The notes beneath the pieces were generated by a model that did not search any database, had not been told where the DNA came from, and worked only from the letters and a program-made list of their open reading frames with translations. The translations under genes were made by a program, and so were the position numbers. From Ophiura sarsii (Eukaryota; Echinodermata; Ophiuroidea; Amphilepidida; Ophiuridae), in NCBI GenBank assembly GCA_035610835.1, contig CM069454.1, positions 58,386,580 through 58,450,579 on the forward strand: a stretch of 64,000 nt of DNA, in the 5' to 3' direction. Shown here piece after piece: positions 1,720-64,000 of this stretch (within the stretch, counting starts at the first letter, position 1; each line of letters opens with the position of its first letter).

Positions 1720-1965
1720 GTTCAAATATTTTCAAAAATGTCCATAAAAAATCTAATTTCAATTTTGTTCTCCAAAATCTTATTTTTTTTAAATTAAGAA
1801 ATGTACACAATATTTGTTAAAAACAAACAAATAAACAAAATGGGTTGGTTGGGCCTGTAGATCAGGTTTTGTGTTTTTTGGTCGCCTTACCTAAGCACAT
1901 AATGGAAGGTGACATCCTGCCCAATTCCTCATCTTTTCAATCTCACAGCACATGTGCTTGTACAC
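1720..1965 (-). repeat. Duplicate of the e21 donor end plus intron
   Basis: About 245 bp that resembles the sequence around the donor of e21 (2076-2330) and a third copy at 8548-8746. It includes the intron stretch around 1860 and the last part of e21 (about 1891-1961) with the donor GTAAGG intact. The exon part has small changes and stops in a poly-C tract. Confidence 0.75.
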
Positions 1966-1987
1966 CCCCCCCCCCCCCCCCCCCCCC
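1966..1987. repeat. Poly-C tract
   Basis: About 22 uninterrupted cytosines ending the e21 partial copy. Confidence 0.9.
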
Positions 1988-2249
1988 TGTTCTACAGATT
2001 TGGGACATCTCAGGAAGGGTTGGTCGGTTGGTCATTTTGTTGTCTTTTTTATCTTGGGGAATTTTTTCTTTTTTAATCAAAATTATCAAAAATTTCCTAA
2101 ATGTTTCATATTTCATTTTTTCCCCTACAAATTTATTTTAAAATAAATAAATCAAGAAATGTACACAATATTTGTTAAAAAAAAACAAATAAAAAAAAAG
2201 GGTTGGTCGGGCCCATAGATCAGGGTCGAGTTGTTAACGTATTGCCTTA

Positions 2250-58654
<56,405 letters not shown>

Positions 58655-58729
58655 CTAGCAATAAAAATCAAGTTTGTATCATTATTTCTAAACTAGTGTA
58701 CAGAAATATTGGTATCGTCTACGTAACTT

Positions 58730-59480
58730 CTTAACACTTTCCGTGCTGCAGTCGTCTGCAGATGACAGTTACAAAAGTTTACAAAATGTTTCAAAATGTC
58801 AAAATAATTGAATTTCATCACCATATTTGGAATCACCATGAGAAATGCATTAAATAAGTGCAAACATGCCTAGTATTGATTCAGTAATCCTCAGGGTCTA
58901 AATTCTTAAATTGTAATCACCTAATCCCTTTTTCATGATAAGAATATAAACATATTCCAATACTATGTGAGATAAGCTTAAAACCCTTTCCATGCAGCTA
59001 TTGGTTTTACCATATAAAACACAGATTTTTCAGAAAACTATCCAAAACTTTCAAAGTCTTATCTCAAGGATTACTGAACCAATACTAGGCATGTTTGTAC
59101 TTATTGTAATGAATTTCTTGTGGTGATTCCATGTATGGTAATGAAATTCAATACTTTGGACATAATTCAAACATTTTGTGACATTTTGGAATGTCGTCAC
59201 TTGAAGCAGAAAGATTGCCGATGTTCTTCGCACCCGACTTCACACTTTCCATGCGGCTATTGGTTTTACCATACAAAACAGGATTTGTCAGAAACCTTTC
59301 TGAACTTTCAAAGTCTATCTCAAGGATTACTGAACCAATACTAGGCATGTTTGTGCTTATTGTAATGCATTTCTTATGGTGATTCTAAATATGGTAATGA
59401 AATTCAATACTTTTGACTTTTTTGAAACATTTTGTGATATTTTTTAATGTCGTCTGCAGAGTATGCCACGTGGAAAGTGT
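58730..59480. mobile_element. ACACTTTCC-family MITEs, three copies
   Basis: Copies at about 58730-58915 (reverse), 58978-59200 and 59240-59480 share ttactgaaccaata, ctaggcatgtttgt and gtctgca. Ends read taacactttcc and ggaaagtgtta, an inverted pair. Confidence 0.8.
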
Positions 59481-59642
59481 TATGCAAACTTACTCTTTTC
59501 TTCGATTACCTAATGCTCACATAAGGGACATACTACAGTTTATTTATTTTCCCAAAGGTGTCATGGACACTGTAGGCCTACCATAGGGAGGGCCTACCAT
59601 AGGCCTACACTATCTCTGACATAGAGAATATATTTAACTTAC

Positions 59643-60134
59643 TGGGCCATATTCTTGTACTAAATGTCTAACTAAACTTGTGTCTAAATTAAACGAGAGT
59701 TTATCTTTTAAATGATGTGCTTAACAAATACAATTTTAAACTCCAAAATCTTGTCCACAGAGTGGCGAGCGTTCTCTGTATACGGTTATTCAATTTATTG
59801 TAGCCCAAATGGGTTACAATCTCTGGGTTACAAAAGATATCGCCCAAATTCCTCAAATGCGCATGTATTTTTAAGACTTCACGATCTGTACGACAGCTTG
59901 CACTGGGCACGGTTGAGTTATCATTCAGGGCGATCAATTGGTGCACGAGTTTAGTTAAACATGTATTAAACTATTCCACACCCATGTTTAAAGTTAGACA
60001 TGTTTCAGTGTGTTAGACGCATGTACAAATTAAACAAATGTTCAAGAATTGCATTTGGTTAAGCGATGTGTTTAAAGTCAAAATTAAATGTGTGTTTAGC
60101 TTAAAAAACATTTTGTACGTACGAGAATACGCCC
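59643..60134. mobile_element. TIR element (GGGCCATATTCTTGTAC ends)
   Basis: Left gggccatattcttgtacta and right gtacgtacgagaatacgccc are inverted, followed inward by taaac(t/a)-rich subterminal repeats. No coding. Confidence 0.75.
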
Positions 60135-60339
60135 CACTACGTTTAGTGACGATAAATAAAATAAATTTGAACAGCAATTGATCAATAGCATGCAAAATCA
60201 CACTCAAATTACTCCTCACCAAAATACACATTCCACAACTTTGATCAATTTTTCATATTTTTCACGGATTAATCTGATAGAGGACACCTCCTGCCCCATG
60301 TTAAAATTGACATGCAAATGTTGATGGGCAAAGATAATT

Positions 60340-60625
60340 TTAAAGACACCACCACAATGCATTGCATTTTTGCAAATTGCCCTAAGTCTGGTCTCCAATT
60401 TGTCTCAGTTCCCATAGACACATGCACACAATAATGGCTTCATAGCGCGTTCATCACTGGAGCTCTTAGGTTCTAGTTTACATCAATGAATAAATTAGTT
60501 ATCAGTGTTCCTTTTCCTTATTTCTAAAACTTCTGGAACTGGACAAATGCATCGTTCGAAAAAATCTCTAGTTGGCTGGCGTTCGCGCAATGCATTGTGG
60601 GTGGACCTCAAAATCTTCTTTGGTA
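60340..60625. repeat. Dispersed repeat, copy 2 of 8925-9235
   Basis: Same order and orientation as the copy near e18, with moderate divergence. Confidence 0.8.
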
Positions 60626-61212
60626 GATGGGTATCTATGGTATATTTTGCTTTCTCAAGACAATGAGTTTTCCGATGGACACATGATATCTTCAGCAGTA
60701 CAACTTCGATTGTCTTTACCAAATAGGTTCATAAGGATAGTTGGTTTGAATCTGATAGGAAAAAAAATCATTATACTGATCCAATGTAAGGTACTCACAT
60801 GTACGTTTTGAAAACATCTGTATCCTTTGTCAACACTTTTGGTATTGATTATCTTTTTAATTTGCAAAAAATTGCAAACATTTTCCGAAAATGTTTGCCA
60901 TTTTTGTTGTTGTTGTTCTTTCCAATATCAATGTGTTTCAAAGTTGTAGATAAGTGAATAATAGAGTAGAGTATAACATGGAATTCACCTACTATTAACA
61001 AAACCATGTTAAAAATAAAATACACACCAAAAACCACAATATTTGGACAAAACCTGTTGGGACACTTACACATAATGATTCCCCAAAATTTGGTACTCGG
61101 GTAGTATTGATCTCAAATACTAAAAACACTAAGTTAGGCCATTTTCGTAAGTCTTTATGAGCCATTCTGTGTGAATTGCCAATGAAGATTGACAGTAGGG
61201 AAGTGGGGAATA

Positions 61213-61460
61213 TTAACACTTTCCATACGGCTATGGTTTAACCAAAAAACAAAACAGATTTTTCAGAAACCTTTCTCAGCTTTCACAGTCATCTCAAGAA
61301 TTACTGAACCAAAACTAGGCATGTTTGTACTTATGTCAATGCATTTCACATGGAGATTCCTAAATATGGTAAAGAAATTCAAAATTTTTGACATTTTTGA
61401 AACATTTTGTGACATTTTGGAAAGTTGTCTGCGGATGCCTGCCTCATTGAAAGTGTTAAG
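61213..61460. mobile_element. ACACTTTCC-family MITE, fifth copy
   Basis: Starts aacactttccatacggctat and ends cattgaaagtgtta, with the shared aggcatgtttgtactta core. Confidence 0.8.
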
Positions 61461-61505
61461 AGAGGCAAACAGTTTTGTCCAACATTGATAGTTACCGTAA
61501 TATAG

Positions 61506-61693
61506 ATCAAACCAGATTAAAATATCAGAACACTTTTTAAACATACCACATGCAAATTAAACATTAAACCAGGTTAAAACATTATACCAAAACAAGTCAA
61601 AATATACCCAAACCAGGTTAAAATACACCAAACCAGGTTAAAACAAACGAAAGCCAAATTAAAACATAGCAAACTTGATTAGAATATCAAAAC
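61506..61693. repeat. Degenerate AAACCAGGTTAAAA tandem repeat
   Basis: About nine loosely spaced (17-22 bp) units of aaaccaggttaaaat(a) and variants. Confidence 0.75.
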
Positions 61694-61825
61694 CATGACC
61701 CATGACCCATTCACCACCACATACACAGGGTGCGGTGCCTTCTATGTGTATTAATCAAAGCAATGGGTTATGGTCATTCATAAAGAAGTTAAAAAGGAGA
61801 AATCACTTTTATTAAGATGCCATTT

Positions 61826-62116
61826 TCAGGGATGCAAGTGGGTGATTGATCAATTTCCTAAACTTTTTACGTGAGCTTGACCAGATGGCCCGAGCGTTTG
61901 CACGCGGTTTCAAACTTTTATAGGGGCATGTCTGAAGAATAGATTATAGGGTATCACCACCCCTAAAAAACATGTTTGACTCTTTTTGTGCTGAAATATC
62001 TTCATCCGATTCCGGAAATGATTGTTTTTTTCCTTCTTCCAAAAATCCGGAATTCTTTTTTTTATGGCCAAATATCAGGAATTCCAGAAATTTCTGAGGG
62101 TCTTGCATCCCTGCAT
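61826..62116. mobile_element. Possible small TIR element (CAGGGATGCAAG)
   Basis: cagggatgcaag at the left and cttgcatccctg at the right are a 12-bp inverted pair. Inside has only a paired ccggaattc region. Confidence 0.5.
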
Positions 62117-62269
62117 TTTGTTTGTCAGACATTGAGAAATAATTGGTATTTATATTTCAACATGCTTCTAGGCATTTCTGATGAAACATGAGCTAATTCT
62201 TGGAATTGTTGTCATTTTGCTCGTCCAAAATGTCTGTGCCGATGCCCTGCTATGCTATGATAATAGTAA

Positions 62270-62500
62270 ATCAGTTCCAAATTAGCAACAAATATTTGTT
62301 TTTTATCTCTTCGCGCGCAAAAGTAATCCAAGTGTACACGCGAGATTATGGCCACACACGCACGGTTTGGCCACCTGCACGCATCAAGCATATGATGCAC
62401 AGTGGGCTTGTTGCCCACATGAGCGCCTGTGTCTTTCTGTATTCATTCGCTACTATACTGTAAGGAGGTTTTGCCAATTTGGAACTGATCAAACTATAGT
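62270..62500. mobile_element. MITE with CAGTTCCAAATT ends, copy 2
   Basis: Left cagttccaaattagcaacaa and right gccaatttggaactgatcaa are inverted; interior resembles 38840-39045 in the opposite orientation. Confidence 0.75.
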
Positions 62501-64000
62501 ATTTTTCTTCCAATGTTCTTTCAGTGTTGGACACAGATGCTTATATCAGCAAGATCGAGTTACAGGAAGTGCAATTTATATTCTAATGAAGTGGGTGTGG
62601 TCTGATATGGTAATTACTTTATTCAGTCATTTTAATTGGACCCTGTAAAATGTCTGCCATCCATTGTGAGGCTGTTATGGATGGCAATTACGTCAACCGG
62701 TAACCGGTTTATTTGAAGAGTTATCCCTTTTTATAACTGAGTCCAAAGGCCTATTTGAATGACTGAAAGAATTATTTGAATGACTAATTCAATAATCATC
62801 TTATATATTGCCCATATTTATAATTAAAAAAATTTAAAGATGAAATAATTTTGTTGATCACACAAGCTGAAGTATAAAAATGCTAAAATTACATAATTGA
62901 ATTAAAATCATGAGCAAATTAAACATTAAAATCACACATCATTTTAGATAAATGTAATCTACTATTAAACCACGGATAATGTGCCATAAAATGGAAACAT
63001 ATATCTGAAGTATCAAGAATGAATTTAAAATATGATAACACTATGATGTTCATATACAAATACATCAATCCAATAATGATCCTTACTATGGTATCATGTA
63101 TATCATACAAGTGGCAATAATCTTGGAGAGTATACTCTTGTCTCTGGGAGCTGACATAAGGCCCAACAAAAGAAGGTCTGTCTCAAATACATTTGCGATT
63201 TTTATTTTTTTCTTATTTTCTTATTGTGTTTTGGCCCATCCCCCCCCCCCCTTTCGAAGCAAACTTTTTTCAATTTTATTCGGACAACTAAAAAAACTAA
63301 AAAACTAAGAATTGGGCTCATCACATAGGGTTGTTATGCGGCAAAAGTGACTCCACATACTATGTGTGCAGGGTAGGTGAAACAGATCTTTTTCTCTTGG
63401 CCAATAAGCATATGTTTGATTTACCCACACAATCAAAGATTAATATCCATCCGCCCTGGCACAGAAATGCCAAGTCTTCAACCAGATTGTGTGTGTATAT
63501 CACTTTGTACACATATACACAGCATTTTCTTCCGCCCGGCATATTGGATACTCGGCTCTCAGTACCTGTACTGGTACTGTATGCCAAGTACAGTACCAAT
63601 GAAGTACCACCAATAGCATCAGTGAATCTGCTATTGTGAGGCTACTTTGGTGGTTGTACCGCACAGGTACATGGGAAATGTATACATTTCCCATGCATGC
63701 AATAAACATACATACCTGGACAGGTACTGATGGCAGCTGGGTAATCATGATGCCGGCCATAAGCAAATAGCCATGTAATATAAGGCTATATTAAAAAAAA
63801 TCTTGTCTCAAAGCTTTTCAGTTTTTCAAAACCTAATGCAGAATGCGTTTTCTTTTAAGTTTTTTTATTTTTTTTAAATATAAAATATTTAAATCCTTGT
63901 AAAAGTGACCATATTTAAAATGATGTGACCAATGAAAATCTGAAAAATCTGAAATTTTTGGGATTTAATTTTGTTTATATAATATTTTTTCTTCTTTTTT
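62501..64000. other. Intron, right edge, little recognised
   Basis: No channel exon was found here. 63155-63190 (aggcccaacaaaagaaggtc) is a lone end of the 13624 MITE family. A short poly-C tract is at 63240-63251. The rest is AT-rich without supported features. Confidence 0.45.

Follow-up and report, generated by a model that had tools for sequence, protein, structure and literature searches.

Mirage-like copies of exon edges in a NALCN gene of the brittle star Ophiura sarsii

Partial copies of exon edges lie scattered through the introns of one channel gene in Ophiura sarsii. Are the exons and exon edges of this gene duplicated more often than its introns, what kind of event left the copies behind, and could the gene make use of them? 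The gene codes for the NALCN sodium leak channel and occupies positions 2251-58654 on the minus strand of the window, a 64,000-nt stretch of contig CM069454.1, where it extends from the end of segment 6 of domain II to the C-terminal region. Exons were anchored by tblastn with a vertebrate NALCN sequence as the guide, and splice sites and phases were then taken directly from the DNA. Comparison with echinoderm orthologues added the small exons E4 and E7 to a 19-exon model. The final model has 21 exons, as the original prediction had counted, with AG and GT at all boundaries, consistent phases and 947 aa without a stop. On the minus strand these exons are E1 (58654-58509), E2 (56942-56880), E3 (45609-45394), E4 (44174-44082), E5 (40474-40340), E6 (38772-38650), E7 (34494-34441), E8 (33539-33356), E9 (30775-30617), E10 (26056-25844), E11 (25070-24967), E12 (22870-22750), E13 (20784-20686), E14 (18585-18385), E15 (16980-16765), E16 (11943-11878), E17 (11456-11308), E18 (9345-9252), E19 (6422-6290), E20 (4780-4665) and E21 (2408-2251).

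With the 19-exon model as query, the solved structures (PDB) that matched best (E = 0) were NALCN chains, labelled 'sodium leak channel non-selective protein'. The same model shares 68% of residues with sea-star NALCN, 67-68% with that of sea urchins, 63% with a sea cucumber, 61-62% with crinoids and 57-63% with hemichordates. In a tree comprising the 19-exon model and 23 chosen sequences (24 proteins, with no amphioxus and no named brittle-star entry), the window sequence fell within eleutherozoan echinoderms (support 100/99) and outside the sampled sea stars, urchins, sea cucumber and crinoids. Its exact place in this tree is unsure because its branch is long. A non-echinoderm host was rejected on this tree, and brittle stars are left as the probable class by elimination.

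Each exon, together with 150 bp on either side, was compared with its own 3-kb flanks. Direct local copies were detected at 12 of the 21 exons at E ≤ 1e-4 (E1, E6, E8, E11, E12, E13, E14, E15, E17, E19, E20 and E21), and at nine under E ≤ 1e-6. These are exactly the twelve exons that had been named in the original prediction. In inverted orientation, none of the 21 exons had a copy even at E ≤ 0.01. Flanks shuffled by a first-order Markov chain yielded no copies at all in 40 sets; chance matches were thus rejected as the source of the weak copies of E12, E17 and E19.

The clearest cases are tandem, and the arrays of 132, 137, 146 and 160 bp that had been described from the sequence were all recovered, with approximately 25, 5, 3.5 and 2 copies, respectively. 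The largest carries the 3' edge of E6 with its donor in 132-bp units (35456-38748, minus strand, as are all copies described here). Its unit consists of 113 bp of exon and intron followed by 19 bp of filler, which is missing at both ends of the array. No other occurrence of this filler was found in the window at up to four mismatches, and a templated origin for it was rejected on that ground. Comparison of 20 of the approximately 25 units showed that they carry separate variants, with four differences from the consensus in the exonic unit and zero to four in interior units; the last unit diverges mainly at its truncated outer end. The GTAAGT donor is retained in all 20 anchored copies. At E20, five 137-bp copies of the 3' edge with donor (4050-4745) are joined with neither filler nor shared bases. 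E13 has 3.5 copies, 146 bp each, of its 5' edge with acceptor (20712-21221), the outermost of which is without the intron part. At E8, a 160-bp duplication of the 5' edge with acceptor (33413-33729), made up of 157 bp and 3 bp of filler, is present in two copies that are 96% identical. Junction structures at E20, E8 and E6 were read by eye from paired copies.

Other copies are fewer per exon or more decayed; they were collected from a comparison that covered pairs other than those within the E6 array. The 5' edge of E15, acceptor included, recurs twice upstream of the exon within 16906-17446 (17080-17162, 90%; 17334-17446, 84%). E21 has a downstream copy of its 3' edge with donor (1651-2323; the copy at 1790-1964 is 87% identical over 177 columns) and an upstream copy of its 5' edge with acceptor (2369-2511; copy at 2467-2511, 91%). 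In addition, the stretch at 8549-8747 repeats the donor region of E21 in direct orientation, 6.4 kb from its source. It is 89.5% identical to a decayed copy at 1721-1918 and 72.6% identical to the exon side of E21, as if it had itself been made from a copy. The 3' edge of E14 with its donor was copied to 17617-17691 (83%), and that of E12 to 21832-21876 (76%), where the donor reads GC. Around E1 there are four decayed pieces (78-88%): 57107-57132, which is weak, 57132-57211, which includes the donor, 58173-58213 and 58293-58323.

The original prediction held that every copy contains one exon edge plus intron, which is not true of all. Units of the E6, E8, E13 and E20 arrays and the duplications at E15 and E21 all span a boundary, with acceptor-side copies at E8, E13, E15 and E21 and donor-side copies at E1, E6, E12, E14, E20 and E21. 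Three of the four E1 pieces, a 34-bp copy of E17 (11231-11264, 85%) and a 31-bp copy of E19 (6087-6117, 87%) are exon-only and do not fit this description. A 43-bp copy of E11 (24857-24899, 93%) contains the first 41 exon bases and reaches just 2 bases past the exon; it begins 2 bases before the exon, yet it sits downstream of E11.

Several other elements were noted in the window. Intron-only arrays include one with six 151-bp copies, rich in TGACCTTTGACC-like sequence (29046-29974), a 22-bp minisatellite with 27 copies (48787-49377) and a 40-bp minisatellite with 18 copies (15991-16709). An inverted repeat at 23330-24014, with arms of approximately 203 bp and 95% identity, likely represents the ends of a small DNA transposon. 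Remnants resembling non-LTR reverse transcriptases occur on the plus strand at 417-956, 46894-47337 and 47882-48323, the latter two recognized by eye. The first of these gave 210 matches; among the 120 listed, three were named to species, two of them Amphiura filiformis (65% and 69%). A minus-strand frame at 34088-34390 resembles, by eye only, a GIY-YIG-like piece of a retroelement.

Are exons really copied more often than introns? We compared the exons with 600 exon-sized intron segments, which were kept clear of exons and of 17 intervals of exon-derived copies, a choice that lowers the intron background. Direct local copies were found for 12 of 21 exons versus 101 of the 600 segments after low-complexity masking (binomial P = 3e-5), and versus 125 of 600 without masking (P = 3e-4). 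Restricting the comparison to copies of at least 90% identity gave 6 of 21 exons and 47 of 600 segments (P = 0.004). Inverted copies showed the opposite, being found for none of the exons versus 136 of the 600 segments (P = 0.005).

A second test counted events instead of segments. Self-comparison of the gene (E < 1e-3, within 3 kb) yielded 76 direct local pairs, all of which were grouped into 27 duplication events, an event being counted as exonic if it touched an exon by at least 20 bp. The 19-exon model underlies this list; neither E4 nor E7, which complete the final model, has a local copy. Ten of the 27 events were exonic versus approximately 2.3 expected (P = 4e-5), an expectation for which a rough 9 kb was subtracted from the gene length for extra copies and which is lower still without the subtraction. 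Among events of at least 90% identity, 7 of 11 were exonic versus approximately 0.93 expected (P = 7e-6), and below 90% there was no significant excess (3 of 16 versus 1.4 expected, P = 0.15). A permutation of the kind proposed alongside the original prediction was less decisive: in a per-base rotation test on the 19-exon model, the number of exons exceeded expectation (9 versus 4.9, p = 0.013), and significance was reached neither for exon edges (p = 0.21) nor for exonic bases (p = 0.14). The background of this weak test is inflated because exon-derived arrays themselves fill much of it.

The remaining 17 of the 27 events had no exonic member, including arrays of 22, 40, 80 and 151 bp, although two of them (17513-17749 and 21817-22254) overlap places with exon-derived copies. 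Introns therefore duplicate too, and the original wording, that copies are almost always of boundary sequence rather than deep intron, was too strong. GC contents of 0.17-0.39 mark these intron-only events as AT-rich, yet 23% of 1017 intron windows reach a GC content of at least 0.42, and base composition is therefore not enough to account for the pattern. Half of the exonic offsets (8 of 16) were 98-173 bp versus 3 of 17 intronic offsets, a post hoc comparison with P = 0.07, and a nucleosome-sized unit was retained only for the more tentative reading given below. Taken together, the data support the view that duplication of exons and exon edges is enriched in this gene, seemingly beyond what recognisability would give, NALCN being one gene that was picked because the pattern showed in it. 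Within NALCN, the suggestion that duplication is seeded at exon edges is partly supported, the excess being largest in the youngest class.

What kind of duplication is this? The closest known counterpart comes from amphioxus, in which a mirage is a minisatellite-like tandem duplication across an intron-exon boundary (PMC3087553). In the globin genes BflGb6 and BflGb9, either boundary can be affected, units measure 150-160 bp, and two haplotypes have 6 and 3 units (PMC3087553). Amphioxus PGBD5 has similar repeats, of 60 and 108 bp, and the report on them cites troponin C and Adh as further cases (PMC3902484); mirage units in Adh3 are given as 10-72 bp (cited via PMC3087553 and PMC3902484). Mirage copies often carry AG/GT signals, and splicing is reported to be undisturbed (PMC3087553, PMC3902484); mirages were also suggested as a route to new introns (PMC3087553). 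The Ophiura copies share the boundary-spanning tandem anatomy at both 5' and 3' edges. They differ in their host, which is an echinoderm as opposed to a cephalochordate, and in density, with 12 of the 21 exons of one gene hit and one array of approximately 25 copies. A literature search, for which most subscription papers were beyond reach, returned no report of mirages outside cephalochordates. In the reachable papers they occur in amphioxus genes only, and the Ophiura NALCN gene is best filed as an echinoderm case of high density.

We therefore regard the copies as mirages, meaning duplications that are local and in direct orientation, that are tandem wherever the case is clear, and that have one end of the unit in the exon and the other in the adjoining intron. 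The probability of this reading is put at roughly 0.78. The copies themselves, their orientation, the junctions with 0, 3 or 19 extra bp and the excess over intron-only events were all observed in NALCN. Two copies fit poorly with simple tandem growth: that of E11, which lies on the unexpected side, and the one at 8549-8747, given its distance from E21.

Among the other ways to account for the pattern, differential survival holds up best, and we consider it possible but distinctly less probable. Deletions reaching into an exon would be purged, shielding nearby duplications, and intron-only duplications would be freely deleted. The argument follows established selection logic, by inference, but its effect was estimated at approximately two-fold, which is below the excess among young events.

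Somewhat less likely still is a bias of recognition and age, whereby duplication would be uniform and exonic copies would be recognisable for longer through their conserved parent exon. Such a bias predicts exon-only decayed copies, and several were indeed seen (at E1, E17 and E19). However, it should be strongest in old copies, and the excess peaks at 90% identity or above and loses significance below. Moreover, tandem duplications simulated at unit lengths of 90 and 137 bp (250 intron and 250 edge placements, 5-25% divergence, mutations in the copy only) were detected about equally, in 94-97% of cases in introns and 96-98% at edges. Once a factor of 1.7 was allowed for exonic copies staying visible longer, P was still 0.002 for all events and 0.00015 for those of at least 90% identity. 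The caveat attached to the original prediction, that the exonic copies might be merely the recognisable ones, does not seem to be borne out by these results. Simulated 46-bp units were detected neither in introns nor at edges, probably as a result of the suppression of near-diagonal matches by BLAST, and tandem units below 50 bp are therefore covered by Tandem Repeats Finder only.

Assembly error, in which collapsed haplotypes or faulty joins created the extra copies, is improbable as a general cause. Two-copy cases at 96% identity, such as E8, could represent two haplotypes joined end to end, but the window contains no N, the decayed copies, with 75-90% identity, have diverged too far, and the array of approximately 25 copies at E6 has separate variants, so that an error is unlikely to be the main cause there.

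Finally, the copies were considered as a supply of spare splice sites or exons. When exons were extended to a copied splice site, an in-frame stop was encountered in all 13 placements (7 donor and 6 acceptor, including one from the E6 array, two from E20 and two from E13; the three exon-only E1 pieces and the copies of E11, E17 and E19 were excluded), which comes as little surprise where the copy is far from its exon, as with those of E1, E12 and E14. The alternative-exon reading was rejected on these stops, and the spare splice sites envisaged in the original prediction are not supported as usable ones. The stops also mean that the outermost sites are those that fit the open frame. GT or AG was retained in 12 of the 13 placements, the exception being the GC of the E12 copy, and the donor of the E1 copy was altered from GTAAGT to GTTAGT. 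No copy with both splice sites of its parent exon was found, each having one at most. Judged from the sequence, the copies have the look of by-products, not of alternative exons fit for use.

Pore residues were of particular interest, as NALCN has alternative pore exons 15a/15b and 31a/31b in other animals, and for echinoderms and hemichordates the switch has been reported at exon 15, in domain II (PMC3557258). In the window, the domain III pore exon E12 (22870-22750) codes for E (SLEGW), as do all six aligned echinoderm and hemichordate NALCNs; vertebrate NALCN has K at this position. The source of the E12 copy (22741-22785) stops short of the pore codon, which was placed at 22797-22795. The domain IV pore exon, E18, has no local copy in its 3-kb flanks, no second domain III pore exon was found between 20000 and 25900, and a search for a domain II switch exon in 57000-64000 yielded only the end of segment 6 at E1. 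None of these searches revealed a full duplicate exon equipped with both splice sites and a selectivity-filter codon. The likeness to 15a/15b and 31a/31b (PMC3557258) lies in exon duplication within the same gene; those are whole exons with a pore residue, whereas the Ophiura copies have at most a single splice site, and none was seen to contain a pore codon. The proposed link to pore switching is thus unsupported in this window. Despite the retained GT/AG signals and the precedent in other animals, it is very improbable that the copies are kept as a functional reservoir for a pore-switching channel.

Under the mirage reading, each copy would have started as a small duplication by break repair or slippage. 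A route of the former kind is known: fill-in of break ends by Pol alpha-primase produces small tandem duplications with no need for repeats or homology (PMC8355091). The likeness to Ophiura lies in the small direct duplications, and the route was described in mammalian cells at engineered breaks. Unequal exchange may then expand arrays such as that at E6. Purifying selection would spare only those duplications after which the outermost donor or acceptor is still the one in use, and surplus copies would end up in introns and decay there. Selection may also be why tandem units have one exonic and one intronic end, because a unit internal to an exon, or one comprising a whole exon, would change the protein. 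As for the excess at exon edges, our leading guess is that exon chromatin or transcription biases where such mutations arise.

Tandem genomic duplication has also been tied to intron gain, for example in a potato RdRp gene (PMC4974935). That case shares with NALCN a tandem duplication inside a gene, linked there to intron change; it combines duplication with a new intron, whereas in Ophiura there are only extra intronic copies and no new exon or intron is predicted.

With an echinoderm gene that has mirages at 12 of its 21 exons, a further phylum would join the one in which they are described. Its events are numerous enough, within a single locus, to explore why duplication favours exon edges over introns. 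More tentatively, and with much less confidence than for the mirage reading itself, exon edges may be genome-wide hotspots of nucleosome-sized tandem duplication in this echinoderm, and probably more widely in deuterostomes because amphioxus shows the same pattern, which would steadily furnish duplicated splice sites and, occasionally, new introns. Exon-edge duplication bears on the origin of introns and of alternative splice sites.
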